DNA of 32,045 bases from Deltaproteobacteria bacterium (lineage in GTDB: Bacteria; Desulfobacterota; Desulfarculia; Adiutricales; Adiutricaceae): the NCBI GenBank assembly GCA_031288415.1, contig JAITRL010000282.1, positions 1 to 32,045 of the forward strand. Direction: 5' to 3'. Of this stretch, positions 2,149-32,045 are shown in pieces. The position numbers and the translations under genes are program-made. The notes beneath the pieces are model-generated. The model did not search any database, was not told where the DNA came from, and saw only the letters and a program-made list of their open reading frames with translations. The first letter of the stretch is position 1, and every line of letters starts with the position of its first letter.

Positions 2149-3462
2149 TCAGGCGCCTGAAATGCCCAAGGCGCGCATGGCCAAGTGCCGCAGGTGCACC
2201 GCAAGGCCCGCCACGGCCGGAGCGAACGGCTTCTTTTGCGACGTCGCCACCAGGGAGACCGTCGGGAAAGAGCAAGGCTGCGGGCAAGGCCGGGCATAAG
2301 CCTCTCCCTCCGGGGGGCACGGGGAGGCGTGCCTCTCCGCCGGTGAAAGCGCCGCTAATGCCCTTCCATCCCGGGTAAAGGGCGCGAAGGAAAGCGGCGC
2401 CGGGAAAGGCCGCGGGCAGTCCGCTCCCTCTTCGAAGGAGGGGGCAAGGCCGCGCTTCAGGCGGGGGGCAGACTGGGCGAAGCCGAATTTCCAAAGCCAG
2501 TTGTCCTTTTTCAGGGGAAGGCCCCTGAAGTTCCTGCGGGCCATGCCCAGAGGGAGCACGGTGCGGCCGACGTAGGCCCCGGACTGCCCCTTGTCCGCCA
2601 CCAGGGCCACGATCCCTGAGGGTTCCCGTTCGGCGAGCTCCAGAGGCATGAGCAGCTGAATCTTGCGGGTGGCGGGGTGCCAGAAGGGAACGGCCGCCCA
2701 GAAGGGATCCTTCTGCCTGAACGCCGCCTCGCGGAGCGCCGTTTTGAACTCGGCCGCCATGGCCGCCGCTGCCTTCGGGTCGCTGGACAGGGCCTGTGCC
2801 AGGGCGGCGCGGTACTCCTCAAGGCCGTCCTGGCTCGTGAGGGGCGGGTTCCGGCGGACCGTCTCCGGCGGCAGGTGCCTGGCCAGGAAAGCCGGGGGGA
2901 GCCTCTCCGGGCGTTCCATGATGATGTGCCCTAAGGAGCATGCGGGGACCCCGGACTTGGGGTCGTAGCGGAAGTCGGCCGGGGTCGCGGAAAAGACGGG
3001 CCTGGCGGGCAGGGGCCACAGCTGATTCACGAGGATCTTACCGGCCTGGCCTTCCGAAGGCGCGGCCAGATCCAGGAAAAACCACGCCTGCCTTCCGCCG
3101 CACTTGTTCCTGACGAAGACGGCGTACACCGGCTCGGCGAAGCGGTCGGCAAGGCCGGTGTCGAAGGCGGCGCAGCCGCCGGCGAAGGCGATTTTGCCTT
3201 CTTCCCTGGCCCGCTGGTACGCGAAGGACAGGTACTCCTTCAGCACGGCCCCGCGTTCGCCGGGGGCGGGCAGCCTGCCCCCGTCCGCAGGGGCCGGCCC
3301 CGAGGCGAGAGGCAGCCCGGCGAAGTGTTCCAGCTTGGCGTCGACGGCGTGAAGGTAGGCGAAATCGCTGAGGGCGGGCGGAAGAGCCTCGTGAGGGTTC
3401 TGCTCTAGGGGCGTCTCCGGCGACGGCACGCCCGCAAAGAATGCCATGTCTGCCGTGTCCAT
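2149..3462 (-). CDS. DUF3825-domain protein
   Basis: A 437-residue protein. The start at 3462 is fixed by a perfect AGGAGG six bases before the ATG; the frame is open further upstream, but that extension is Arg/Pro-rich noise. Residues about 75-325 match the DUF3825 pattern I know: IAFAGGCAAFDTGL (91-104), an aromatic PVYAVFVRN strand (111-119), FRYDPKSGVP then HIIMERPERLP (164-189), and AAVPFWHPATRKIQLLMPLEL with a final GRTVLPLGMARRNFRGL...NWLW (299-324). DUF3825 has no established biochemical role; a nucleic-acid-related function has been suspected. There is no signal peptide, so it is probably cytoplasmic. The roughly 110 residues after the domain are Pro/Ala-rich and look like read-through of GC-rich DNA, perhaps after loss of an original stop. 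It is separated by about 1.8 kb from the restriction-modification gene on the same strand. Confidence 0.75.
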   Translation of the reverse strand: MDTADMAFFAGVPSPETPLEQNPHEALPPALSDFAYLHAVDAKLEHFAGLPLASGPAPADGGRLPAPGERGAVLKEYLSFAYQRAREEGKIAFAGGCAAFDTGLADRFAEPVYAVFVRNKCGGRQAWFFLDLAAPSEGQAGKILVNQLWPLPARPVFSATPADFRYDPKSGVPACSLGHIIMERPERLPPAFLARHLPPETVRRNPPLTSQDGLEEYRAALAQALSSDPKAAAAMAAEFKTALREAAFRQKDPFWAAVPFWHPATRKIQLLMPLELAEREPSGIVALVADKGQSGAYVGRTVLPLGMARRNFRGLPLKKDNWLWKFGFAQSAPRLKRGLAPSFEEGADCPRPFPAPLSFAPFTRDGRALAALSPAERHASPCPPEGEAYARPCPQPCSFPTVSLVATSQKKPFAPAVAGLAVHLRHLAMRALGISGA

Positions 3463-4040
3463 GATATCCTCCTGAAGGTCCCGGCGCGGCCTGCGGGACA
3501 GGCGGGCGCGGGGGCGCGCAAAAATAAGGGAACGCGCGGGCGGCCGGAGCGGGGCCGGAAGCCGGGCAGGCTCAGGCGCGCTCCGTTGAAGCCGCCGCAA
3601 AAGAAGCGGAAGGCCCGGGCATCCGCTTACAGCATCTGCCGATGGCTATGTTCTATCCCAGGCATCGCAAGCGCCGTGCCAGGAAGGCGGCCGAATGCGG
3701 ATCGCAAGCCCTGCCGGCCGAAGGGCCCAGTGGCCTTCGGCCGGATTCCGCCGGCGCCGTTGCCGAAGCGGGCAATGTCTACGCGCCAAGAGGGAGAAAT
3801 TACCCGGCCGGCGGCCGATGCTCTCGGGCTTCGGACGCCGGCGCCTGGCTGGAAGACACGGTGCGGGGAGCCGCTTCCGCGCCCGCGCCGAAAAGCCTGA
3901 GGAGACAAGGAACGGCGGGCGGGCCGCCCGCCGAAGCTAAGGAGGGCCGGAGGGACTTTGCGGCGCCAGGCTTGCCCTGGGGCAAGCCGCGCCCTCGCCG
4001 GCGCCGCGGCGGCCGGAACCGCAGGGAAGGCTTCGCCGCT

Positions 4041-5278: not shown

Positions 5279-8200
5279 TCACGCGGGAAGAAGCTCCCGG
5301 GCGCATCTCAGCACCTCCTCGGCGTACTCGGGCTTTCTGGCGTTCAGGCACCTGAAGCCTTCAAGCATGATTTCCAGGTCGCGGACGTTGAGGCCGTAGA
5401 TGAGGGCCGCGACGGCGTCGTTGCGCGCCTGAAGGGCTTCCGCCCGCGTTTGGCCGAGGAGACCGCCGCCGTCGATGCCGAAAAGCCCGGCCGCGTCGGG
5501 GAAAAAGCCCGGCGAGTGGCTCAGGGTCAGCAAGGCCGCGTTGCGGGCCAGGTCGCGGCATGGGCCGGGGGCCGCGATGGCGGCGTCTTCCGGCTGCGGG
5601 AACGGAATCCGGGAGACGATCGACTTGCTGGCGTGGACATCCACCGAAAACCGCAAGGCCCAGTCGAACGGTATGCTGTTGAGGATGCCCAGCGCGAAAA
5701 ACAGCCTTTCGGGGGGGATCATGTCATGCTCCACCGCGCGGAGCTCCGGGCTGTAGCGGTACCGCCCCGGAACGGATGCCCAGAGGGTCTGGTGGGTCGC
5801 CACGCCGGCCGGCACGACCGCCGCGACGGCCGTCCTCTCGTTGCCCCTGCCGGCTATGGCGCGGAAGCACAGCCTCATGAAGTCGTGATCCATGACGGCG
5901 AAGCGGGCCAGGTCGCCCAGCCCGCGCTCGCCGGAGAGGAACCCGCCGAGCGTGCCCCCGCGGCCCGCCCGGCTGCGGTAGCTGAGATACGGGGCTTCCA
6001 GCGAGACGTCGGACCGGAACTGGATCGCCACGTCGCGGAGGAGACGGGAGACGTTCTTGCGCTCATGTATCCGCCTGAACTCCGACGGATCGACCCAGCG
6101 GGCCGGTTCCCTGTAACGGGCGCGGTAAAGGTAGATGGATTCGCCGCGGCAGACGGGGATGAGCCCCTCGCCCGGCTCCTTTCTGCTGATCTCCTTGAAG
6201 ACGAGCGGCTCGAAATCGTTCCTGAAGTCCAGCCAGCGCGGGTCGAGCGGCCTGAAGGACGAGTACATCCTGTCCAGGACCGGGAGCTGGCGCTCGCCGT
6301 CAGGTATCTCCATGTACGCCAGGAACTCCGGGGAGAGCCTTCTCACGGCGGAGACCGGGTAGGAAAACACGCCCGCGTCGGAGTCAAGCAGGTCAGGGCT
6401 CCTCAGGTTGAAGCGGGCCCTCATGGACTGGTCGGGATCGGCCCTCTTCTCGATCTGTATCATGCCGAACCTGTAGTGGCCTGTCACGTCCGGAAAGAGG
6501 GATTTCCGGTTGGCGAAGCCGTCGAACCTGACGATGCTGAACCCGTTCAGGATATGGAGCCTCATGTCCTTGGACATGTCATCGGTCAGAAGCGACGTGG
6601 GGACAAGGTAAACGAGGCATCCCCGCTCCGCCAGCAGCCCCAGGCTCCTCTCGATGAACGGCCTGAACAGGGCGCCGCTGCCTCCGGACTTGCTGTGCGG
6701 GTACTTCCGCCTGATGTACTCGTTCAGCACCCGCGCTGACGCCTCTTGCATGCCCAAACGGCTCATGTTGGACTTATCCGAGAGGACTTCCTCCCTGAGC
6801 CTCCTCTTCTCCGGTTCGGGAAGCTCGTCGTAAAACGGCATGAACCCCGCGAAAAAATGGTTTTCCTCGAAGCTGGTCTTCTTTGACGGCGGGTTCCCGA
6901 TGATCACGTTGAAGCCGGGCCAGGGGCCGCGGAAGGCGTCGGGGAATTCCGTCTCCCAGTTGAAGAAAGCGTATATCCGGCCGAACCTGCCGATCATGTC
7001 CCCGAATCTCGAGTAGCACCAGTCAGGATCCATCATGAGGGACCGGGTCCTGCTGTAGGCGACGAGGGCGCCGGAAATGTCGTCAAGCGAGGCTTCCATG
7101 CGGCCGCAGCTCTGGGTCACCGTGAGGGAATCGGCGTCGTAGACCCTGCGCCACAGCCTGGCCCGGTCATACGCGTCGACGATGTCCAGGAAATTTCGGA
7201 TGTCGAGATACTTGTTGATCTCGCTCATCTCGCCGGAAAGCCTCCGGTACAGCGACTTGGAAAGCTTGACCTGATCGCCGCTGGAGTCGTATATGTCGCT
7301 TAAGGCCGCCGATTCCTCCTGCAGCCTGTCGAAAAGGGCCTGCTGACTGGGCAGCGAGAGCTCGGGCCAGGTTTCCCGGCTCCTGGCCTCGTCGGCGCCC
7401 GCCCCGACCAGCGCGTTGCCGCGCTTCACGTGATGCTCTATGAACACGAGCGGGGCGCCTAAAACGAAGGTGTCGACCCACAGGGATACCAGGGCGAGCT
7501 CCACCGCGAGCTGCGAGACGTCCACGCCGTAAATCGTCCTCTTGAGGAGAATGCGCTTGAGCACATCCCTCTCCTCTATCACCGTTCCGGCCAGGCCGGA
7601 GCCGTCGTCCGGCCCCAGGATCGCCGCGAGGCCTTCCCTGATCGACGCCGCCTCCTTTTCCAGCGCCCTTCTCAGCCTCGTGTCCGTTCCGAGGCGCTGC
7701 CGGGCCTTGTCGGCCAGGAAGTTCAGCGCGTCAATCAGGATCTGGCCGCTGCCGCAGGCGTTGTCCAGTATCTTCATGTCCAGGATGGAGCGCCCCGGCC
7801 GGGCGAACACGGAGTCAAGCTGGCTTTGTATGCCCGCCTTCGCCATATGCGCGGACAGGGGGCCGGGGGTGTAGTAGGAGCAGGAGAGCCTTCTGTTCCT
7901 GAAAGCGTTCTGGAGGTACAGCTGTCCCTTGCCGACGACGGAGACCGTCTCCGTCCCTGCCCCCAGCCTTTCAAGGATAGCCTTGTCGCGGCGGCCGCAG
8001 AACCCCTCCATGACCTGCGGGGCGGCCTGGCGGCTCTTGGCGTAGGATACCCTCAGGAACTCCAGATCCTCCTCGGCCGTCCTGAACTCGTACTCGGCGA
8101 GACCGTGGTATATCGTCCCCAGGTGCGACGGCGACAGGGTCCTGAAGTCGCGCCGCGACCCGTCAGCGGCGTACAGGAGCCTGCCGAGCAGCCGGGAGAC

Positions 8201-9400
8201 GTCCTTGTCCTTCATGAGCCTCGGCTCGTCCAGGAGCGGTGACTTTTCGGGGCTGAACAGGCCGCCGTTCAAGAGGGTCACGCCGGCGATCTCGTCGCCC
8301 TCGTCCAGCGCGGCGAAAAGGGCCCTGAGCCTCTTCCACAGGAAACAGCGGTCGCCCCAGCCGACGGGGCCGCGGCTCCTCATGATCTCCACCGTGCGGC
8401 CCAGCGAGACGTCGGAGTACGCGGGGTGCCTGGCCAGCGCGTCGCGGTGCCTGTCCTCGAAATAGGACACGAAGGCCAGCCTGAACAGCAGGCGCAGGCT
8501 GTTTTCGAGCACCTCGTCCATGAGCATCGCGCGCTTTAGCGCGAGGGCGGAGGCATGAATCACCCGGCCGATGTCCTCGAACAGCGAGTATTCCCCCTTC
8601 TGCCCGTAAATCACGCTTTTGAGGTCATCCTCCAGCCTCGCCCTCCTGTCGTCCTCGCGGGCCAGGGCGACGTCGATCGCCTTGGGCTTTTCCTTGCCGG
8701 CGGCGTAGGTGGCCGCGTTGAAGATTCTCCAGAACGCCTCGAACGCCGCGCCCGCCTCCCCTTCCTGGTGAAAATTGGCGATGAGCCTGAGATCGAAGGT
8801 CACGAACCTCTTTTCCGGGGACACCCTCGTGTTGTCGATGAACATCCACGAGCGCCCGTTGGTCAGGAACCCGTAGTCTATCCTGGTGGCCTGCAGGTAA
8901 GCGAGCAGCTGGTTATAGGGGTTGTCGCCGGTCACCTTCCCGTTGTCGAGCCTCTGGCTCGGCGCCTTGATCTCCATGACCGCGCCGACCAGCCCGTATT
9001 CCGGATCCCTGGAGCCCGAGAACTCCCGCATCCGCCCCGCCGACGTGAAGAGCAGCATGTCCGGCCTCCTCTGCACGGAGGACACGGTCAGGGTATGCTC
9101 CATGAGGCAGTGCCAGCCCAGCATTTCCATGAGCGGCGCCACCAGCTGCGAGGTCACCTGCTGCTCGCTCGGCTCCGCGACCAGGAACGCCTTGTCCAGA
9201 AGCCTGCGGCAGGAGCGAAGCTCGTCCCCGGTGAGGGCGTCTCCGGGGATGCTTTCGCCTATCGCGTCGAAGACGTTGCCGCTGAAGATGCGGTTCGTCC
9301 AGAACCTGTTCGGGCCGGCAAGCTCCGGCTTCATGAGCGCCGGCATCGCCTGGACGCCGATTTCCATGTCGGGCTCGAGCGCTTCGGAAAAGACAGTCAT
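5279..9400 (-). CDS. Type IIG-like restriction-modification enzyme (Eco57I-family methyltransferase with nuclease domain)
   Basis: A 1373-residue single-chain enzyme expected to modify adenine in DNA and to cut unmodified sites. The N-terminal part (about 85-200) carries a PD-(D/E)XK nuclease pattern: Asp114 in RRPDMLLF and Glu143-Ile-Lys145 in VMEIKAP. A helical connector leads to the methyltransferase: YYTPGPL near 511, the SAM-binding motif I DNACGSGQ at 546-553, GVDVSQLAVELALVSLWV near 635, and catalytic motif IV as NPPS at 836-839 in VIIGNPPSKK. The C-terminal third resembles target-recognition regions of this family (LGILNSIPFDWALRFS...SRIPFPQP) and ends with the usual ALIYGLNVRDLEIML helix. 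The length suits type IIG or PglX-like enzymes. NPPS, rather than NPPY/F/W, is unusual. The start has a GGAAGG about 10 bases upstream. No separate methyltransferase, specificity or BREX/DISARM gene lies nearby. Confidence 0.87.
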   Translation of the reverse strand: MTVFSEALEPDMEIGVQAMPALMKPELAGPNRFWTNRIFSGNVFDAIGESIPGDALTGDELRSCRRLLDKAFLVAEPSEQQVTSQLVAPLMEMLGWHCLMEHTLTVSSVQRRPDMLLFTSAGRMREFSGSRDPEYGLVGAVMEIKAPSQRLDNGKVTGDNPYNQLLAYLQATRIDYGFLTNGRSWMFIDNTRVSPEKRFVTFDLRLIANFHQEGEAGAAFEAFWRIFNAATYAAGKEKPKAIDVALAREDDRRARLEDDLKSVIYGQKGEYSLFEDIGRVIHASALALKRAMLMDEVLENSLRLLFRLAFVSYFEDRHRDALARHPAYSDVSLGRTVEIMRSRGPVGWGDRCFLWKRLRALFAALDEGDEIAGVTLLNGGLFSPEKSPLLDEPRLMKDKDVSRLLGRLLYAADGSRRDFRTLSPSHLGTIYHGLAEYEFRTAEEDLEFLRVSYAKSRQAAPQVMEGFCGRRDKAILERLGAGTETVSVVGKGQLYLQNAFRNRRLSCSYYTPGPLSAHMAKAGIQSQLDSVFARPGRSILDMKILDNACGSGQILIDALNFLADKARQRLGTDTRLRRALEKEAASIREGLAAILGPDDGSGLAGTVIEERDVLKRILLKRTIYGVDVSQLAVELALVSLWVDTFVLGAPLVFIEHHVKRGNALVGAGADEARSRETWPELSLPSQQALFDRLQEESAALSDIYDSSGDQVKLSKSLYRRLSGEMSEINKYLDIRNFLDIVDAYDRARLWRRVYDADSLTVTQSCGRMEASLDDISGALVAYSRTRSLMMDPDWCYSRFGDMIGRFGRIYAFFNWETEFPDAFRGPWPGFNVIIGNPPSKKTSFEENHFFAGFMPFYDELPEPEKRRLREEVLSDKSNMSRLGMQEASARVLNEYIRRKYPHSKSGGSGALFRPFIERSLGLLAERGCLVYLVPTSLLTDDMSKDMRLHILNGFSIVRFDGFANRKSLFPDVTGHYRFGMIQIEKRADPDQSMRARFNLRSPDLLDSDAGVFSYPVSAVRRLSPEFLAYMEIPDGERQLPVLDRMYSSFRPLDPRWLDFRNDFEPLVFKEISRKEPGEGLIPVCRGESIYLYRARYREPARWVDPSEFRRIHERKNVSRLLRDVAIQFRSDVSLEAPYLSYRSRAGRGGTLGGFLSGERGLGDLARFAVMDHDFMRLCFRAIAGRGNERTAVAAVVPAGVATHQTLWASVPGRYRYSPELRAVEHDMIPPERLFFALGILNSIPFDWALRFSVDVHASKSIVSRIPFPQPEDAAIAAPGPCRDLARNAALLTLSHSPGFFPDAAGLFGIDGGGLLGQTRAEALQARNDAVAALIYGLNVRDLEIMLEGFRCLNARKPEYAEEVLRCARELLPA

Positions 9401-9859
9401 GCGGCGTAAACCTTCCGTGAATCATCCGGGCCGTCGGCGGGCCTCCCGCAGCCCGGCCGCCCCCCGGAAAGCCGGCGGACGGGCCTTATGAATCTTCTCG
9501 CTCCCGCAAGGGCACAAACGAGGCGCCTGTTCCCGCCCGGGCCTTGGCCGCCGGCCGGCCGAGGGGCCTCGCGCGGGTCCGCTCCTGTCCCGCCGCCCCG
9601 GCCGCCGCAGGTTGCGGGCGGCGGCAGGCTTTAGGCGCGGCCGCGCCTGCAAGGCAAGCCGCAAAGGCCGGGCTTGCCCTGGCCTGCCGTGACCTCAAGG
9701 CAGGACCTCCTCAAGGCCGACTCCCCTGAGGGTTGGGCAGGGAGGTGGACTGTTACCGCGATTCAATCGGAGAGAATCAACTCTCGAACATCCTTGAGTT
9801 TTCCCATTTACTTTTGAAAATGCTTTATATAGAAGCTCAAACTTTATTTAGCACTATAA

Positions 9860-10965: not shown

Positions 10966-12999
10966 TCACTGCAGCGCCTGCGGCTTGATGAGCCCGGGAA
11001 TTTTGCCGCAGGTCTCGATGAAGGCCTGCCTGGCGGCCTTCGCCTCCGCAGTGAGCTTGGACAGCCGCTTTTTTTCCGGCGGAGTCAGCGCGCCTTTCGC
11101 GCGTTTCGCTTTGAGGGCCTCCCGCTCGGGGCAGTGCCTGGCGCAGGCCTCCGCCGCCGAGGCCAAGGCGAGGTACGCGGCCTCCTCCGGCTGGCCGGCG
11201 AAGACGGCAGGCACGGGGGAGGCCTCCGGGGGAGCGGCCGGCTCCCCCTCCTCCGGGGGCGCATCCTCCGGGATCGGCTCCTGCAGGCTCCCTTCCTTGA
11301 GGACCTTCCGCAGCATGTCGGCCTCCCTGGCCCTTCCGTCTTGCGAGAGCCAGGCAATCAGCACGCGGCAGCGGGTCGCGATCTGCTCCGGATAGATCCC
11401 CCGGAAAGCCTCATCCAGAAAGGACCTGCGCCCGCGGGCCCTCAGGCCCGAGCTCACGGCGAGCTTCTCGTAGAAGATCGCCTCCCCGCGCGCTCCCATG
11501 ACAATGCAGATCTCGCCCAGGTAGCCGGCGATGATCGACACCCAGTACGTGTCAAGCCCGCCGGAGCGGACGGCCTGCTCCAGCGCGCCGGTAAGCGAGC
11601 GTTTCGCTTCCCCGTGCCGGCCCTGGCGGAAGGAGGCGAAATTGGAGTATATCAGGGACCTGAGCGTGTCAGGGTGAGAGGCGCCCAGCGCGCGGCCCTG
11701 GGCGTCTGCCATCGCTTTGAACTGGGCCTTCGCGGCCTGCATGTCCTCCGTCATGAGCGTGAGGGCGTTCATGGAGCTTAAGTTCATGTCATCCGCCGGG
11801 CCCGCCGGTTCCGGCGCCCGGCTCCTGGCCTCCATGACCTCCTGGAGCATGGACTTCGCTTCGGTCTTCTTCCCGAGCTTGAGCATGACATTGGCCAGCC
11901 CGGTCCTGGCGGCCAGCGACTCGGGATGTTCCGGCCCCATCGAGTCGCTCATCTTCGTCACGAGCTCGCTCAGCAGCTCCTGTGCCTTCCCGTCCTCACC
12001 GACGGCGGAGAAGGCGTGGGCCAGGACGCCCATCGTGGAGACGGTCTCGGGGTGGTCAGGCCCCAGCAGCCGCTTCTTGCCCTCCAGGACCCCGCTGAGC
12101 AGGTCCCGCGCCGCGGCCCAGTCCCCGAGGGCCCCGTTGCACAATGACAGATGGTTCATGGTTCTCAGCGTGTACAGGTTGTCATCGCCCAGGGAAAGCC
12201 TTCTTCTCTCCAGGATGACCTGGAAAATGTCCCTTGCCGCGGCGAATTCGCGGCTGCGGAGCAGGGCCATTCCCAGGGCGGTCATGAAGTTAAGCGTTTC
12301 CGGGTGGCTCTGTCCCCACACGCGCTCGAACTTTTCCATGGCCCGCCCGCGCGCGGCCAGGGCCTCCTCGTGATCCTTGAGGCGCGCAAGCGCGACCGCC
12401 AGGCCCCTCTCCGCGCGCAACGTCACCGGATGGCTGTCTCCCAGCGCGAGCGAGGAGGTTTTCAGGGCGACCCTGAGGCCCGCCGCCGCTGACCTGGCGT
12501 CGCCGGCCTCAATGAGGGCGGCCGCGAGCGAGATCCGGGCGCAGACGGCCTGCGGGTGGGCCTCCCCGAGCGCGGAAGCGGCGCGGGCGGCAATCCCGTC
12601 CAGGGCCTTCCGGGCCCCCCCCGGGTCAAGAAGGTAGCTGAGCCTCACCAGGGCGGCCGTCTCGCCGGCGTAAAGGCTCTCCGGGGAATCCGGGCCGAAA
12701 ATGACCGGGATCCTCGCCAAAGCGCGGCCGGGAGGCCCCTCCATGTCAGGCGGCAGCTCCAGTTCGATCTCGTAGAACTCCCTGGCCATGCGGCTCCAGG
12801 CCGCAAACGCCCGCGGATCGCCGTCGCCGAAGGCGGCCTCGGCCGCTTCGGCCAGATCCTTCCAGCTCATGGAGGCCTCCAGGTGCATGGCCTCGTCAGA
12901 ACGTTTTTCCGCTTTGGCCCGCAAGTCTTCCAGTTCAGGGGGCATCTCTTCGAACTTCCAGGCCGGCCGGTAGGGCGCGCCTGCGGCTTCGTCAGTCAT
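10966..12999 (-). CDS. TPR protein, CHAT-less paralogue of the TPR-CHAT protein
   Basis: A 677-residue protein. AGGAGAG precedes the ATG at 12999; the frame is open further upstream but has no support there. There is no signal peptide. The N-terminus has the motif YRPAWKFEEMPPELEDLRAK, nearly the same as residues 85-108 of the TPR-CHAT protein. The middle (about 130-480) holds kinesin-light-chain-type TPR units of about 42 residues with LG..HP.TL signatures (LGDSHPVTL, WGQSHPETL, LGDDNLYTL, LGPDHPETV, MGPEHPESL, LGASHPDTL). The end (about 600-677) matches the linker before CHAT in the other protein and stops where CHAT would begin. TPR units bind other proteins, so a scaffold, adaptor or decoy role is possible. 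No catalytic motif was seen. Its partner is unknown. Confidence 0.85.
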   Translation of the reverse strand: MTDEAAGAPYRPAWKFEEMPPELEDLRAKAEKRSDEAMHLEASMSWKDLAEAAEAAFGDGDPRAFAAWSRMAREFYEIELELPPDMEGPPGRALARIPVIFGPDSPESLYAGETAALVRLSYLLDPGGARKALDGIAARAASALGEAHPQAVCARISLAAALIEAGDARSAAAGLRVALKTSSLALGDSHPVTLRAERGLAVALARLKDHEEALAARGRAMEKFERVWGQSHPETLNFMTALGMALLRSREFAAARDIFQVILERRRLSLGDDNLYTLRTMNHLSLCNGALGDWAAARDLLSGVLEGKKRLLGPDHPETVSTMGVLAHAFSAVGEDGKAQELLSELVTKMSDSMGPEHPESLAARTGLANVMLKLGKKTEAKSMLQEVMEARSRAPEPAGPADDMNLSSMNALTLMTEDMQAAKAQFKAMADAQGRALGASHPDTLRSLIYSNFASFRQGRHGEAKRSLTGALEQAVRSGGLDTYWVSIIAGYLGEICIVMGARGEAIFYEKLAVSSGLRARGRRSFLDEAFRGIYPEQIATRCRVLIAWLSQDGRAREADMLRKVLKEGSLQEPIPEDAPPEEGEPAAPPEASPVPAVFAGQPEEAAYLALASAAEACARHCPEREALKAKRAKGALTPPEKKRLSKLTAEAKAARQAFIETCGKIPGLIKPQALQ

Positions 13000-13060
13000 G
13001 GCTTTCTCTCCTGGGCAGGCCGTTTTCCGGCGCCGCGTCAACAACACGATGGGGTCCCGT

Positions 13061-13089
13061 ATTTTACGGCCTGACGGCGGAGGGGGCAA
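13061..13089 (-). promoter_or_regulatory. Candidate promoter of the CHAT-less TPR gene
   Basis: On the minus strand, TTGCCC (-35, 13089 to 13084), 17 bases, then TAAAAT (-10, 13066 to 13061). The expected start point leaves a leader of about 55 nt to the ATG. The -10 lies in a small palindrome, CCGTA-TTT-TACGG, which could be an operator. Confidence 0.5.
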
Positions 13090-14420: not shown

Positions 14421-15050
14421 ATGACATTCCCCCCGTTCCCCGCGCGCCTCTCCGCGCCCGCCGCCGCCGCGGCCGCCGTCGCCCTGACGGTTTCCGGGGC
14501 GGCATTCGCGCAAAAGGGCTGGGAAACCTTCGACAGCTCCCGGGCCTTCGCGTCGGCTCCCGGGCCCGCCTTTACCCTGCGTTTGCCCCCCGGCATGCGG
14601 CAGGATCCCGGCCACGCCGGCCAGGCGGTTCACGCGGGGCCCGCCGACGCCCGAAACAGGCTGCTCATGTTCAGGGTCATAGTCCCTAAGGCTATGCCCA
14701 AGGAGTATTCGACATTCATCAATGAAGAGGGCGAGAAAGCCTTCTTCCTCCAGTACGCCGCCCAGCTGGCCGAACACGAGCAAGGGAAACTGTACCACCT
14801 GGAATTTCCCGAAACCCCTGACGCCACTGCCGAAGCTTACATCAGGTCAGCGGCAGGCTCAGGCCCCGACGGCAGCCTGCTCTCCTTCGACGTGTGGCGC
14901 GTGATTGTCAAGGAAGGCGTTATCCTGCAGTTCGGGTGCTCCTACATCGTCCCTGAAGGCGTTGCCGCGAGCGAAGGGCTCTCCTCGGCCGACAACCCCG
15001 GCTACGGCGCATACTGCCGGCCGTTCCTCGATTCCCTCGCGTACAAGTGA
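14421..15050 (+). CDS. Secreted protein of unknown function
   Basis: A 209-residue protein and the only convincing plus-strand gene. Residues 1-30 look like a signal peptide with an Ala/Val core and an Ala-Phe-Ala cleavage site at 28-30. The mature protein is mixed alpha/beta, with FTLRLPPGM near the start, an acidic segment (YSTFINEEGEKAFFLQYAAQLAEHEQ), and strands such as LLMFRVIVPK, SFDVWRVIVKEG and ILQFGCSYIVPEG. Two cysteines near the C-terminus (FGCSY and YCRPF) could form a disulfide outside the cytoplasm. I do not recognise the family. The start has a weak AAGG six to ten bases upstream, and a good promoter lies before it. It points away from the CHAT-less TPR gene and converges on the TPR-CHAT gene. 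Confidence 0.75.
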   Translation: MTFPPFPARLSAPAAAAAAVALTVSGAAFAQKGWETFDSSRAFASAPGPAFTLRLPPGMRQDPGHAGQAVHAGPADARNRLLMFRVIVPKAMPKEYSTFINEEGEKAFFLQYAAQLAEHEQGKLYHLEFPETPDATAEAYIRSAAGSGPDGSLLSFDVWRVIVKEGVILQFGCSYIVPEGVAASEGLSSADNPGYGAYCRPFLDSLAYK

Positions 15051-20807: not shown

Positions 20808-22595
20808 CTAAGTCTCTTTGCCGATGCCGATGAGCATGTTTAGTATGGCCGCCCGGCACAGCTCGCGGTACTTCAGGGCCTTGGCCGCGTCGCCGTTCAA
20901 GGCGTGGAGGAGCGACAGGGCGATCGAGGGGCGCCAGGAACGCCGGTGGCCCCGCCCGAGGGCTTTGACCGTCAGGGACACGTGCCGTTCCAGGACCTCC
21001 GCGTGCCCCGCGAGATCCCCCAAGGCCAACCTGATCGCGGCGAGCCTTTCCAGGGCTTCCAGTTCCCGCGCGGGGTCGGCCCGCCGCGGCTTCCCGCGCT
21101 TCTTGAGCTCCTGCCAGGCGTACCCGGAGAACAGATCGGCGTCGGGCGGCTCGCCCCCGACAAGGTGCATCGTGGCAAGGCCCAGATTAAAGAAGACGGA
21201 GTCGGGAAACGCGAACCCTGAGGCCTTCGAGCTGGCTTCGCGGGCCTCCCTGTAGGCAATCGAGGCGGGCAGGGTCGCCCCGACGGCGCTCATGGCGTCG
21301 CAGTACGTGAAGACCGTATCCAGGCTTTCGCTGAAGTACAGGCGGCCGGCCGCGGCGTTTATCTCCGTCAGTTCAACGAAGAGCCTGCCGGCCCGGTCGA
21401 ACAAGCCGGTCTCGACGGCAAAGGCCGCCTCCCTGAAGACGCCCGCGAAGGCCGCCTGGGGACTGTCGCCCAGGAGCCGCGCCCTGGCCGCCTGATCTCC
21501 GCCGGAGAGGGCGCGGAACTCGTCCTCGGCGCAGAGCTCCGACAGGGCGGCGGCCAGGGGGGTCAGCAGCCCGCCTGGCCGCAGCCGCTCCCGCCTGTCG
21601 TTGAGCAGCGCGTGTTTCACGTTCACGGCTTCGACGCTCTCGCCCAGCAGCATGAGGATGCTGGCCAGAACGGCCGCGGACTTGACGACTACGGGATGCA
21701 CGGGCCCCAGGGCCTGCCGGGCATCGGAGAACCCCCGCTCCATGACCGAGCGGGCCTGCCCGAGTTTCTTGTTCTTAATGTGGCAGACGGCCAGCAAGAC
21801 GACGGACTCGGCCGTGTCCGGGTGACCGGGCCCCAGGCGCTTCCTGCGGCCGGAAACCGCCTGCCTGAGGAGGTCATGCCCGCGGCGGACATCATCTTTC
21901 TGGAGAAAAGCGGCCGCCAGGTCGTGAATGGAGGCGAGGGTGCGCGGATCCCCCTCCCCGAAGGCCTTTTTGCGGATGACATACGCCTCGTCAAACACCT
22001 GAAGGGAAATCTCGGACTCGCCCGCCTCGCGCAAGGAGTCGGCGAGGCCGGTCAGGGACTCGGCCACGCTGTGGTGGGAGGCGCCCAGGGCTTGCGCCCG
22101 CGCGGCCCCGGCCATTGCATGGAAGGAGACGGCTCTCTGGAGGTCCTTCAGGGCGCGGAGGCATTCGGCCAACGCGCCCATGAGCCCGATCGCGGCCGGG
22201 GAGGCTTCGTCGGGGGTATCGGAGAGGCCTGAGGGAACCTCGCTGCCGGCCTCGGAGAACCTCCTGCGGGCCTCCAGAAGGCGGAGCAGCATGAAGTCCA
22301 GGCCATGGCGCGCCTTCCCGCAGCCGAGGCCGACGTCGCTTATGTCCGGGAGCGGGCCTGTCCCCGCCGCGGCGGCAGCCCACTCCGCCGCTTCCCGCGC
22401 CAGCTCCTCGCCGGCGCCCTCCAGTTTTCCGGCGGCACGGCCGGCCCAGGCGTCGATCTCCCCCCCGGTGCCGTTTTCGGGCCGGGAGAAGCCAAAGAAA
22501 GGGACGGCCAGCAAGACGGGGGCAGCGCGAAAGTCAGCGGCGATGCCGGTCAGCATTTCCAAAACGGCCTTGCGCCTGTTATCGAAAATTTGCAT
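20808..22595 (-). CDS. TPR repeat protein TPR-A
   Basis: A 595-residue protein without signal peptide or catalytic motif, so probably cytoplasmic. GGAAGAG lies at good spacing before the ATG at 22595. The N-terminal helical region (1-130) contains AWAGRAAGKLEGAGEELARE and KARHGLDFMLLRLLEARRRFSEAG, conserved in TPR-B. TPR-like units follow with LG.(S/G)HP signatures (LGASHHSVAESLTGLADSL, FGEGDPRTLASIHDLAA, LGPGHPDTAESVVLLA, LGPVHPVVVKSAAVLA). The second half is a helical region ending in GDLAGHAEVLERHVSLTVKALGRGH and DAAKALKYREL. It is a tandem paralogue of TPR-B (23925-25715), with homologous leader and promoter. The last dozen residues (ILNMLIGIGKET) differ from TPR-B and resemble its own N-terminus (VLEMLTGIAADF). 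The function is unknown; protein binding is expected. Confidence 0.85.
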   Translation of the reverse strand: MQIFDNRRKAVLEMLTGIAADFRAAPVLLAVPFFGFSRPENGTGGEIDAWAGRAAGKLEGAGEELAREAAEWAAAAAGTGPLPDISDVGLGCGKARHGLDFMLLRLLEARRRFSEAGSEVPSGLSDTPDEASPAAIGLMGALAECLRALKDLQRAVSFHAMAGAARAQALGASHHSVAESLTGLADSLREAGESEISLQVFDEAYVIRKKAFGEGDPRTLASIHDLAAAFLQKDDVRRGHDLLRQAVSGRRKRLGPGHPDTAESVVLLAVCHIKNKKLGQARSVMERGFSDARQALGPVHPVVVKSAAVLASILMLLGESVEAVNVKHALLNDRRERLRPGGLLTPLAAALSELCAEDEFRALSGGDQAARARLLGDSPQAAFAGVFREAAFAVETGLFDRAGRLFVELTEINAAAGRLYFSESLDTVFTYCDAMSAVGATLPASIAYREAREASSKASGFAFPDSVFFNLGLATMHLVGGEPPDADLFSGYAWQELKKRGKPRRADPARELEALERLAAIRLALGDLAGHAEVLERHVSLTVKALGRGHRRSWRPSIALSLLHALNGDAAKALKYRELCRAAILNMLIGIGKET

Positions 22596-23924: not shown

Positions 23925-25715
23925 TTATGGCTTTCCTCCGCCTCCGCGCAGCTTCCGTTCGGCCTCCAGGGACAGCTTGCGGTACTTCAGGGCCTTGGCA
24001 GCATCGCCGTTCAAGGCATGGAGGACCGACAGGACCGTCGCGGGCCGCAGGGTAAGACGGTGGCCCCGCCCTAGGGCCTTGCCCGTCAGGGACACGAGCC
24101 GCTCCAGGACCGCCGCGAACCCCGCGAGATCCCCTAAGGACAACATGAGCTCGCCGAGCCATTCCAGGGCCGCCGCCTCCGTCACGGGGTCTGGCCATTG
24201 AGGCTTTTTGCGCTTCTTGAGCTCCTTCCAGGCGAATTCGGTAAACTTAAGGGCGCTGATTGACTGGGCCGAGACGGAGTACGCCGTGGCCAGGCCGAGG
24301 AGCGTGAGGACGGTGTCAGGGTGCGCCGGCCCCAAGGCCTCCGTGCGGGCATTGAGGACCATCCCGTAGGTCTGCAAGGCGAGAACCGCCGCCCCGAGGC
24401 CGCACATGGCCTCGGCGTACATGAAGGCCATATCCGCGTCGCCGCCTGAGTCGGGATCCTCCGCCAGCGACAGGTCTTGCAGTTCAGTTAAGAGCTTGTC
24501 GACCCGCCTGAACTCATAAGTCTCGATCTTAATGGCCGCCTCCATGAAGACGCCCGCGAAGGCCGCCTGGGCGCTGTCGCCCAGGAGCCGCGCCCTGGCC
24601 GCCGGATCCCCGCCGGAGAGGGCGCTAAACTCGTCCTCTCCGCACGGCTCGGCCAAGGCGGCGGCCAGAGGCGACGGCCAGCCGGGGGGAAGCAGCCGCT
24701 CCCGCTTCTCCTTGAGCAGCGAAAGCTTCAGTTTCAAGGCGCTTTCCGTGTCGTTCTGCTCCCAGTAAAGGGTAGCCAGAAGGGACGCGACCTTGATCAC
24801 AGCGGGATGGCCGGGCCCCAGCGCCTGCCGGGCATCGGAGAGCCCCTGCTCCAGGAGCGCGCGGGCCTGCCTCGCCGATTTGCTCACCTTGACGCAAAAG
24901 GCCAGGCAGAAGACGGACACGGCGGTATCCGGGTGCCCTGGCCCGAGGACCTTCCTGCGGCCGGCAACCACCAGCTTGAAAAGATCCCGCGCGCGGCCGA
25001 AATCCTTGGCCAAGGCATGGGAGTCCGCCAGGTCATGATAGGAAGCGAGGGTGCGCGGATGCCCCGCCCCGAGGGCCTTCCTGCAGATGGCATACGCCTT
25101 CTCGCGCAAACGGATGGGCGGTTCGGACATGCCCATGTTCTGCAGGGAGTCCGCGAGGCCGGTCATGGACTCCGCCACGGCGGGGTGGTCGGGGCCCAGG
25201 GTAAACGTCCGGTGGGCTCCCGCCAAGGCATGGTAATGCATGGCGCGCCGGGGTTCATGCAGGGCGCGGAGGAATTCGGCCCCCGCGCTCAGGAGTTCGA
25301 GCGTGGCCGGGGAGGCTTGGTCGGAGGGCTTGGAGGGCTCGGAGGGCTTGGAGGGGCCTGAGGGAACCTCAGGGCCGGCCTCAGAGAGACTCCTGGCGGC
25401 ATCCAGGAGGCGGAGCAGCGTGAAGCCCACCTCATGCCGCGCCTCCCCGCTGGCATGGCGGGCGTCCCTTATGTCCTGGAGCGGGACCGCCCACGCCGCG
25501 GCTGCCGCCCACTCGGCCGCTTCCCGCAACAGTTCCCCGGCAGCCTCCAGGCGGCCGACGAAACGGCCGGCCCATGCGTTTAAGTGCCTCCCGGCGCCCT
25601 CTTCAGGCTGGAACTCTGAGTCAGGGAAGGATACTTCTCCGGGGGAAAGACACTCGTCGATGATGCCGACGAGCTGTTTTAAAACGGTCTCGCGCCAGTC
25701 ATCGATAATTTTCAT
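23925..25715 (-). CDS. TPR repeat protein TPR-B
   Basis: A 596-residue paralogue of TPR-A. The start at 25715 aligns with the TPR-A start (MKIIDDWRETVLKQLVGI against MQIFDNRRKAVLEMLTGI). The upstream GGGCGGG is only a weak ribosome binding site. The frame is open upstream to 26057, but that part aligns with the TPR-A leader in a different frame and is taken as non-coding. The N-terminal helical region is followed by a Pro/Ser linker (SGPSKPSEPSKPSDQ, absent from TPR-A), TPR units with LGPDHPAVAESMTGLADSL, LGAGHPRTLASYHDLAD, LGPGHPDTAVSVFCLAF and LGPAHPDTVLTLLGLA, and a conserved C-terminal region (GDLAGFAAVLERLVSLTGKALGRGH, DAAKALKYRKLSLEAE). It ends in a Gly-Lys tail also seen in the pseudogene copy. 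No enzyme motif or export signal. The role is unknown. Confidence 0.84.
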   Translation of the reverse strand: MKIIDDWRETVLKQLVGIIDECLSPGEVSFPDSEFQPEEGAGRHLNAWAGRFVGRLEAAGELLREAAEWAAAAAWAVPLQDIRDARHASGEARHEVGFTLLRLLDAARSLSEAGPEVPSGPSKPSEPSKPSDQASPATLELLSAGAEFLRALHEPRRAMHYHALAGAHRTFTLGPDHPAVAESMTGLADSLQNMGMSEPPIRLREKAYAICRKALGAGHPRTLASYHDLADSHALAKDFGRARDLFKLVVAGRRKVLGPGHPDTAVSVFCLAFCVKVSKSARQARALLEQGLSDARQALGPGHPAVIKVASLLATLYWEQNDTESALKLKLSLLKEKRERLLPPGWPSPLAAALAEPCGEDEFSALSGGDPAARARLLGDSAQAAFAGVFMEAAIKIETYEFRRVDKLLTELQDLSLAEDPDSGGDADMAFMYAEAMCGLGAAVLALQTYGMVLNARTEALGPAHPDTVLTLLGLATAYSVSAQSISALKFTEFAWKELKKRKKPQWPDPVTEAAALEWLGELMLSLGDLAGFAAVLERLVSLTGKALGRGHRLTLRPATVLSVLHALNGDAAKALKYRKLSLEAERKLRGGGGKP

Positions 25716-26047
25716 TTGGGGGCCCGCCCTGACCGCCGCGGCCGGCAATTCCGCCGATGGCAGGCGGCCTCTCAGATGGCCCCGGTCCCGCCCCGGAATC
25801 GCTTTCGGGGCGGGAACCCGCGGAGGCCTGACAAGGAAACTGAAGCCTGGGACCGGCCCACGCGCCCTCCGCGCATAGGGCGGTCCGCGGGTGACCGGGC
25901 TGGCGGCGGCATCGGGGAAGGGCGCGGCTGAGGCCACGGCCGAAGCCGGCGGCGGAGGCCAGGGCATCGGCGGAGGCCGAAGCCGCCGCGGCGGCCTGGA
26001 GACGCCGGACAGTGCCGGCACGTTGCTGAACTGAAGCGATCCGGAAC

Positions 26048-26076
26048 ACATTTGCACGTAAACGGCCCCATGTCAA
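26048..26076 (-). promoter_or_regulatory. Promoter of TPR-B (conserved with TPR-A)
   Basis: On the minus strand, TTGACA (26076 to 26071), 17 bases and AAATGT (26053 to 26048). The spacer shares GGGG, CGTTTA and TGC with the TPR-A copy. The leader to the ATG would be about 330 nt. Confidence 0.6.
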
Positions 26077-30014: not shown

Positions 30015-32045
30015 TCAGAACTGGAAGCCGATGCCGGCGGAGGCCTTGTGGTCGGTGAAGCCCGAGGCCACGTTGAGGTCGTAGTTGACGAAGATGTCGA
30101 CGGGCCCGCCGGTGTCCACCTTGAGGCCGGCGCCTACCTGGAAGGAGCCCCTGGCAGGCCTTATGCCTTGATAGGTCGCGTAGAGGCCGGTGCCGACGAA
30201 GCCCACGTTAAGGACGTTGTCAGGCCTGTCGGCAACGAAGGTGTAGCCGACCCTGAACTCGGGTGTGATGACCGCGGATCCCGACTGGATGTTGCCGGAG
30301 AACTTCAGTTCGACGGGGATCTCCAGAAGGTGGTCCGAGGCGCCCTTGAAGGAGTTGCCGGGGAACGCGTAGAGGCCTGCGTTCACGACGGTCTCGTTCC
30401 ACCCGTCCATCTTGTAGGAGAGGTAGCGGAGCCCGATGCTGGGGGTGAACGTGAAGCTGTCTCTCACGAGGTTGTAGCCGACCCTCGCCCCTAACTGCCA
30501 GCTGTCGATGTCGAAGCTCCCGGTCTTGGTTCCTCCCGTGGCGAGGGCCACGGTGGAGTCGTTGGACCTGTTGGCGTAGCCGAACTGGGCGTCGATGAAG
30601 AAGTTGTTGGACAGCGTGTAGGAGGCGTAGAGCCCGAAGCCGGCCGTCTTGACGTCTATGTCGGAGAGGCCGCCGTTGCTGTCGATCTTGCCGTAGGAGA
30701 AGGCGGCGGAGAGGCCCAGGAGAAGCCCGGGCACGGAAGCCACATGGCGGTCGTAGCCCAAGGCGAAGCCGCCGCTGCGGTACTTGTAGCCCAAAACGCC
30801 GTCGCGGTCGCTTTGCCTCGCCCAGGAGCCGAAGCCGCCTATCCAGAGGCGGTTAAGGTCATCGGCGGAACCCGCCGAGGGCGGGGTGATGGTCGAGGAC
30901 GACCTTATCTTGTCAAGGCGCCCGTAAACTACGCCCTGGGCCTTCAAAGCGACGTCGTTTACGGCGTAGGCGACGTTCAGGACCGACTCGCCGATAAGCT
31001 GCCTTAAGGCCAGCTCGGCGTTGACGGAGTCGTTGTTGAGGTACAGGGCCTGCAGGACACCGTTCAGGACCGCGCCCAGCCCGTTGGGCTGCTCTTCGTA
31101 TACCCGGGTGATGAGGCCGGCGGCCTTGCTGAAATTGCCGGTATAGGCGAAATTATTGCTGTCGGCCACCATCTCCACGCCGGCGCCCAAGCCTTTGTAA
31201 TCGCCTACCTTGACCGTGCCTGAAGAAGGATCCACGTCAAGGTCATAGGCGAACGACTGGTAGGATCCGGCTCCGCTCATGGTCGTAGCGCTCAGAATCG
31301 GAGTTGTATCGTCAAAATCGCCTTGCAGGTCAAGGAGGACAACCTCTCCTGCCGCCGGCCCGATAATTGTGTTGGATTGCAGCTGCCCTTGCAGGCTTGC
31401 ATCCGCCGAGATTTTCAGGACGGATTTGTCTTTGAGCGTGGCGGTTCCCGTAGCGACGTTCAAGTGGTTTGTCCCGAGATCGAGGGTCCCTTCCCCGTCT
31501 ACTGTCAGGTCGCCGTTGGTGATTTGAAAAGTGTTGCTGGAGGGTGTCTGGGTGATTTTAAAAAGCCCGCCGGTCTCGACGCGCAACCCGCCGTCAAGGA
31601 TATTGTTCCCCTCAGCGCTGTTCAGGGTGCCGCCGTTCTTGACGGCGATCTCTACCGGAGAAGTCACCGTGGAACTGTTTTTCAGGTTCAGGACGCCGGA
31701 GATGTCGAACGAGTCAGCCTCGTCTCCCGGGGTAGCGCTTCCATTAGCCAGGGTGATTGTGGCCCCGTCGACGTTCACGACGCCTTTTGCGCCGAGGTTG
31801 ATTTTCGCGCCTTTACCGGTGACTGATACCGCGCCTGCGATATCGGCGACGGAGTCGGCAGTGGCCCCTATGTTCAGCGAGCTCCCCTCTCCGGAAACCA
31901 GGACTGCGCTTGAGCCGTCATCGTCAACCTTCAGGCTGCCGCCGTCGACGTTAAGCGAACCGCCATCGCCGTCCACGACAAGATTCCCGCCGTCTTCCAC
32001 CTCCACCGAGCCGCCGGACTTGACGTCGAACTTGACGTCGTCGCC
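30015..32045 (-). CDS. Autotransporter, C-terminal part (5' end outside the window)
   Basis: The frame is open to the right edge, so 676 residues are visible and the signal peptide and start are missing. The visible passenger (about 1-340) is Gly/Asp/Ser/Val-rich with repeated strands such as GGSLNVDGGSLKVDDDGS, GKGAKINLGAKGVVNVDGAT and GGTLNSAEGNNILDGGLRVE, typical of a right-handed beta-helix. A helical linker (about 345-390, GAVLNGVLQALYLNNDSVNAELALRQLIGESVL) leads to the last 280 or so residues. These form a type Va autotransporter barrel: LWIGGFGSWARQSDRDG, GFALGYDRHV, DAQFGYANRS, WQLGARVGYNL, TPEFRVGYTF and a terminal GIGFQF with the C-terminal Phe needed for outer-membrane assembly. 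It should display or release its passenger at the cell surface. Adhesion or biofilm roles are common in such proteins, but the passenger is not specific enough to say. Confidence 0.92.
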   Translation of the reverse strand, partial: GDDVKFDVKSGGSVEVEDGGNLVVDGDGGSLNVDGGSLKVDDDGSSAVLVSGEGSSLNIGATADSVADIAGAVSVTGKGAKINLGAKGVVNVDGATITLANGSATPGDEADSFDISGVLNLKNSSTVTSPVEIAVKNGGTLNSAEGNNILDGGLRVETGGLFKITQTPSSNTFQITNGDLTVDGEGTLDLGTNHLNVATGTATLKDKSVLKISADASLQGQLQSNTIIGPAAGEVVLLDLQGDFDDTTPILSATTMSGAGSYQSFAYDLDVDPSSGTVKVGDYKGLGAGVEMVADSNNFAYTGNFSKAAGLITRVYEEQPNGLGAVLNGVLQALYLNNDSVNAELALRQLIGESVLNVAYAVNDVALKAQGVVYGRLDKIRSSSTITPPSAGSADDLNRLWIGGFGSWARQSDRDGVLGYKYRSGGFALGYDRHVASVPGLLLGLSAAFSYGKIDSNGGLSDIDVKTAGFGLYASYTLSNNFFIDAQFGYANRSNDSTVALATGGTKTGSFDIDSWQLGARVGYNLVRDSFTFTPSIGLRYLSYKMDGWNETVVNAGLYAFPGNSFKGASDHLLEIPVELKFSGNIQSGSAVITPEFRVGYTFVADRPDNVLNVGFVGTGLYATYQGIRPARGSFQVGAGLKVDTGGPVDIFVNYDLNVASGFTDHKASAGIGFQF

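Follow-up and report, generated by a model that had tools for sequence, protein, structure and literature searches.

P0001, a 677-residue TPR protein without a CHAT protease domain, is encoded on the minus strand (positions 10966–12999) of the window, that is, the whole 32,045-nt stretch of DNA analysed here, which belongs to a draft MAG of 4.7 Mb in 381 contigs with 83% completeness. We tentatively read it, with slightly more doubt than confidence, as a neofunctionalised, non-proteolytic, cytoplasmic scaffold that may derive from an exported family of TPR-CHAT proteases. We put this forward because the CHAT domain, the export segment and the groove asparagines of the family have been lost while the frame and composition of a working gene have been kept. 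The evidence also bears out the original prediction of a stable protease-less member as opposed to a fresh truncation, since a second protein (L025) has the same layout, the composition is that of a coding gene, no relic of the protease domain follows, and the frame is open where neutral drift would tend to close it.

The coding sequence is supported by its open reading frame, by homology and by a codon-position GC of 0.68/0.51/0.86, with coding-type composition in both halves. It starts with an ATG at 12999, and a Shine–Dalgarno-like AGGAG (13008–13012, minus strand) lies 8 nt 5′ of this codon. A longer ORF of 822 residues, which extends the frame upstream to 13434, was considered as the true frame and disfavoured; codon-position GC is flat in the extension (0.72/0.79/0.74) and of coding type inside P0001, so the start of the longer ORF is probably wrong. 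The clean start that had been claimed is thus backed by AGGAG and composition, whereas the claimed promoter comes down to one sigma-70-like match (13061–13089, minus strand), weak at 9 of 12 positions and found by consensus only; the 5.2 kb scanned holds two sigma-70-like sites, compared to 0.1 in shuffles.

P0001 consists of three parts. At its N terminus, the HEAD motif (YRPxWxFxxM..., 12769–12975, minus strand; predicted helices at residues 21–35, 39–57 and 62–77) caps the TPR solenoid, with a profile E value of 2.5e-31 that is to be read in the knowledge that the underlying alignment, A1, contains the protein's own segment as a row. The solenoid itself (about residues 100–568; 11296–12702, minus strand), assigned from Pfam, sequence and fold matches and the structural model, is built of units of 42 residues and has a kinesin-light-chain-type fold by both sequence and Foldseek, its best match being the kinesin light chain TPR domain (sequence E 1e-16, Foldseek 2.8e-07). 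LINK, the helical segment that joins TPR to CHAT in paralogues (10978–11208, minus strand), follows in the profile search and in the model, with an E value of 1.5e-31 against an alignment, A2, that likewise includes P0001's own row. The stop codon falls 3 residues beyond the end of the LINK model. The AlphaFold model of P0001 has a mean pLDDT of 84.4 and a pTM of 0.65.

The neighbouring paralogue P0002 (15724–19611, minus strand) has a signal-peptide-like start, typical by eye, followed by HEAD, TPR, LINK and a CHAT domain with a His/Cys dyad (HVASH, SACDT). In the model of its C terminus (mean pLDDT 83.2, pTM 0.84), LINK forms two long helices directly before CHAT. That the two ends of P0001 match this neighbour had been noted from the sequence; the likeness in fact spans nearly the whole length, matching at 37% in 483 columns of head and TPRs and at 33% in the 600 columns that run from the TPRs to LINK. 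The further claim that P0001 is cut right before the protease domain also stands: in Pfam searches P0002 shows a CHAT domain (E 8e-48), while P0001, whose stop lies just past LINK, matches TPR families only. P0001 therefore carries the solenoid-then-LINK arrangement of TPR-CHAT proteins without the CHAT domain and its His/Cys dyad, and the HEAD motif of the exported HEAD-TPR family without, by hydrophobicity scan, its N-terminal export segment.

No CHAT remnant was found 3′ of P0001 in a six-frame profile search down to position 9401 (best E 1.2), for which the CHAT domain of P0002 served as the positive control. With blastn, one CHAT-bearing frame matched the downstream DNA over 31 nt (27/31, E 6e-4); this match, the only one, is in reverse orientation, and we take it as chance.

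P0002 lies 2.7 kb upstream of P0001 on the same strand, and the two are not one simple operon because an opposite-strand ORF sits between them (14421–15050, plus strand; from the ORF list), which has a signal-peptide-like start by eye and no Pfam or NCBIfam match. On its other side P0001 adjoins a 1,373-residue type IIG-like restriction-methyltransferase (5279–9400, minus strand; PADLOC REase_MTase_IIG E 8e-164, Pfam Eco57I). The window also encodes, all on the minus strand, a DUF3825 protein (2149–3600), an autotransporter beta-domain protein (30015–32006) and, upstream of P0002, two related and adjacent TPR ORFs (20808–22595 and 23925–26057; 595 and up to 710 residues) without a HEAD or CHAT match.

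To place P0001 among its relatives, six genomes of the same genus, which we take to be termite-gut bacteria of the Adiutrix family, were searched with profiles from A1 (HEAD), A2 (LINK) and Pfam CHAT. HEAD occurs in all six and LINK and CHAT in five each; among 63 genomes of the class, HEAD is found in only 10 and LINK in 8, so the expansion of the HEAD/LINK family is, as judged from these profile matches, centred on this genus. The 99 loci that we fetched are a selection of the matches (125 HEAD frames, where the six-genome search counted 160 HEAD matches). They hold 84 frames with HEAD only, 24 with LINK-CHAT (several cut by contig ends), 22 with HEAD-LINK-CHAT, 19 with CHAT only, 8 with HEAD-CHAT, 7 with LINK only and 2 with HEAD-LINK, as well as 9 frames with multiple HEAD motifs; among these nine, L077 carries LINK but lacks CHAT. 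Within this selection, frames with HEAD only (84) are more numerous than those bearing CHAT (77). Several HEAD-TPR genes stand in tandem with an export-like start and without LINK or CHAT (L110 and L111 on G004 C218, L115 on G001 C223, L112 on G004 C354), and two frames of G001 (L071 and L067) carry four consecutive HEAD motifs; one of these two frames, 2,628 residues long, also has LINK and CHAT.

The HEAD-LINK class consists of P0001 and L025, which come from the same genome and end 3 and 4 residues after LINK. L025 (contig C55, start at 4022 of the locus, 1,451 residues) shows the same HEAD-TPR-LINK-stop layout and is not linked to P0001. Its 18-kb contig has no CHAT match, and no CHAT trace follows it by profile. 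No shared gene context is seen between the two, one lying by the type IIG-like restriction-methylase and the other by Ada/AlkA and O6-methylguanine methyltransferase genes. A shared leader was also considered; only CCAGGAGA is alike, and as 30 of 66 comparisons are as good or better, the likeness is not above background and gives no sign of a common leader. In the other five genomes of the genus (74–86% complete) there is no clear orthologue of P0001, the best matches reaching 38–39% over about 370–380 residues, below the paralogues of its own genome. Among the literature matches listed there is no paper on CHAT-less TPR-CHAT paralogues.

Trees suggest that the protease was lost and not absent from the start. 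P0001 and L025 nest among paralogues of their own genome, in a clade whose members mostly bear CHAT (support 96/90 in one tree, 87/84 in a concatenated tree), from which we infer that their loss of CHAT is derived. A single shared loss is not rejected (p 0.287). The two group with the dead-CHAT protein L026 of the same genome with support of 93/88 in one tree, a grouping to which the concatenated tree gives no support (p 0.125). The nearest paralogue of P0001 is not P0002, and a sister pairing of the two is rejected (AU p 0.031, in a set of four tests).

Loss of the protease recurs in relatives. Both catalytic columns are covered in 60 of 77 CHAT frames and not in the other 17; the dyad is lost (His, Cys or both) in 12 of the 60. 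L077, from another species (G002 C388), passes through LINK and stops 93 residues on, and nothing that follows matches CHAT significantly; its sister L094 (support 100/99) has a dead CHAT domain itself. L256, which belongs to another genus (positions 1–1700, G012 contig C69; 5′ end off the contig), stops just after LINK, and the relic of the CHAT C terminus that follows is itself interrupted by a stop. A CHAT-only frame with a signal-like start and no TPR (L038, 6396–8186, G000 contig C1) reads LSFDAF where the catalytic LSACDT would stand; its lack of Cys was seen by eye, and it stands outside the 12 counted as dead.

The export segment is the next difference. We scanned the segment before HEAD for hydrophobicity at a threshold of 1.5, which is not a trained predictor, and counted frames with a closed 5′ end, taking the overlapping L110/L111 once. 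An export-like segment is found in 31/31 HEAD+CHAT frames, 81/85 HEAD-only frames and 1/3 HEAD+LINK frames without CHAT (113/119 overall); P0001 and L025 are the two frames of the third class that lack it. The difference has a Fisher p of 0.006, chosen post hoc and among kin genes that are not independent. In P0001 the best window before HEAD reaches 0.07, in agreement with the earlier remark that it has no signal peptide. P0001 and P0002 are thus predicted to lie in different compartments, P0002 exported and P0001 not.

A third difference concerns the groove of the solenoid. According to eLife 38362, asparagine pairs of KLC1 bond with the main chain of the bound peptide, and N343 and N469, which are serines in KLC2, are said to set the preference of KLC1. 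In our 42-residue TPR unit model, built from 176 family repeats, the NN of KLC1 falls on columns 13 and 14, and from this alignment and the 42-residue spacing we read them as the counterparts of the KLC1 peptide-binding asparagines. For proteins with at least three scored units, column 14 is Asn in 193/454 units of 44 CHAT-intact proteins, a class defined by a CHAT span of more than 330 residues and absence from the dead list, with the dyad not necessarily checked in all. It is Asn in 7/72 units of 9 dyad-lost proteins, 1/43 units of the three CHAT-less LINK proteins and 20/302 units of 37 HEAD-only proteins. P0001 has Asn in 0/7 units at column 14 and 1/7 at column 13, and L025 in 0/25 at column 14. 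Within their own genome this makes 0/32 for the pair, compared to 30/52 in five CHAT-bearing paralogues, two of which (L003 and L023) have a CHAT domain that runs off the contig. The fold positions L15, A16, G23 and A28 are unchanged in CHAT-less proteins, with ratios near 1, and columns 4, 26, 40 and 42 also drop in this class. HEAD-only proteins are Asn-poor although they are exported, so the loss of asparagine tracks the loss of CHAT and not that of export.

There are exceptions, with an Asn share of at most 0.18 in 8 of the 44 CHAT-intact proteins and Asn in 2/3 units of the dead-CHAT protein L078. Only two independent pairs are supported, and they agree with the trend in 1.8 of 2 on average; since neither TPR units nor paralogues are independent, we place weight on the proportions and not on p values. 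HEAD- and CHAT-less TPR frames of the same genome (n = 11), comprising the two window ORFs upstream of P0002 together with frames of L027, L035, L036 and L037, have Asn at columns 13/14 in no scored unit.

For selection on the TPR region, the original prediction had pointed to dN/dS, which could be computed against paralogues: four pairs with P0001 give 0.37–0.66, like the two CHAT-bearing pairs (0.42 and 0.55), with dS mostly near saturation. These ratios are weak evidence because they come from paralogues only, with dS near saturation and in a GC-rich genome; they do not mark P0001 as less constrained than CHAT-bearing paralogues, nor do they prove constraint. In a neutral simulation at 0.3 substitutions per site, a mean of 6.8 stops arose and 1/300 runs stayed stop-free, and the P0001 branch has 0.74 changes per column in one tree and 1.14 in the concatenated tree.

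The known systems closest in structure are TPR-CHAT caspase-like proteases, namely Csx29 of type III-E CRISPR, and the separase fold. The TPR-LINK-CHAT model of P0002 aligns with Csx29 (7y9x; Z 26.6, 433 residues, rmsd 4.9) and with separase (5fc2; Z 23.4), from which P0001 differs in lacking CHAT and P0002 in looking exported. In Craspase, according to PMC9729208, TPR-CHAT works with gRAMP. Among six window proteins searched with PADLOC, P0001 and P0002 have no match at E 0.001. The P0002 model also aligns with DdvA (PDB 8rot and 8rw5; Z 19.6–19.7, 314–331 residues), a transmembrane anti-sigma factor by entry title only, whereas P0001 has no membrane-like segment; among the literature matches listed, PMC4374960 mentions DdvA and none is on its structure. 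Compared to KLC1, whose groove asparagine pairs grip the main chain of the peptide, P0001 has no such pairs. The dead-CHAT paralogues of the genus resemble it in their Asn-poor groove, save for L078, but keep a CHAT domain where P0001 has none.

Taken as a scaffold, P0001 would have had an ancestor within the exported TPR-CHAT protease family and would have lost CHAT and the export segment while keeping the HEAD cap, the solenoid and LINK. In exported members, a peptide that serves CHAT as trigger or substrate may be held by the groove asparagines. After the loss of CHAT, such a grip would no longer be selected, and the solenoid may now bind another partner by way of HEAD, the exposed LINK or different residues of the groove.

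The main rival to a cytoplasmic scaffold, in our view unlikely, is a regulator acting in trans, in which the exposed LINK docks on CHAT or on the LINK of another member before export and either keeps the protease inactive or helps it to fold. LINK is whole in P0001 and is the last part kept, and in P0002 its two long helices directly precede CHAT. It also occurs alone in small proteins, so LINK can be regarded as a module that P0001 has kept: in three of the six genomes, L034 (3911–4777), L088 (5094–5975) and L103 (6274–6927) consist of a signal-like start, a stretch of low complexity and a single LINK. The first lies near dynamin-like, ExbD and TonB genes and the other two both near a YbjN gene. 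The remaining LINK-only frames of the seven are not counted as free LINK, as L067 and L070 run off contig ends, L087 overlaps a CHAT frame and L081 stops 29 residues after LINK at most 170 nt from a contig end. Against such a regulator stand the differing predicted compartments of P0001 and P0002, the absence of a CHAT match from the contig of L025, and a nearest paralogue of P0001 that is not P0002. The first two of these points, with the rejected sister pairing and the lost groove asparagines, leave the original suggestion that P0001 serves the adjacent protease unsupported. As a decoy or substrate carrier, holding the same peptide as the protease so as to shield or deliver it, P0001 would have the right type of solenoid, in the same genome and from a nearby gene, but it shows no export-like segment, and neither it nor L025 keeps the column 14 asparagines that such a role might need. 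Although this last argument presumes that the groove holds the substrate, the different predicted compartment, the altered groove and the unconserved pairing make it the least likely reading, and a very improbable one.

That P0001 is a truncation product heading to decay seems to us quite unlikely. The case of L256, where CHAT is decaying after LINK, shows such a course in another genus, and the dN/dS of P0001 is not low; however, neither P0001 nor L025 is followed by a CHAT trace, both halves of P0001 have coding-type composition, its long branch has left the frame open, and asparagines were lost from the groove while fold positions were retained. Export by another route, with P0001 acting outside alongside other members, is improbable: nearly all scored HEAD frames (113/119) have an export-like segment, which favours a shared location, but no window before HEAD comes near the threshold and the start that defines this segment is backed by AGGAG and composition.

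More broadly, we consider it possible, if doubtful, that in this bacterial family CHAT has its peptide port in the kinesin-like TPR groove, whose asparagines tend to be kept or lost along with the catalytic dyad, and that this genus has repeatedly converted exported, peptide-sensing proteases to non-catalytic solenoids, of which P0001 and L025 would have returned to the cytoplasm as a separate non-proteolytic arm. To our knowledge, the targets sensed by TPR-CHAT proteases outside CRISPR are largely open. Within one genus, intact, dead and protease-less paralogues form a natural series in which groove asparagine goes with the active site; this singles out the TPR groove as a candidate peptide port and shows which of its residues are worth testing. 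In other protease families, pseudo-proteases pass from active to dead to loss of the domain, and the series suggests that bacterial CHAT proteins may follow the same path.
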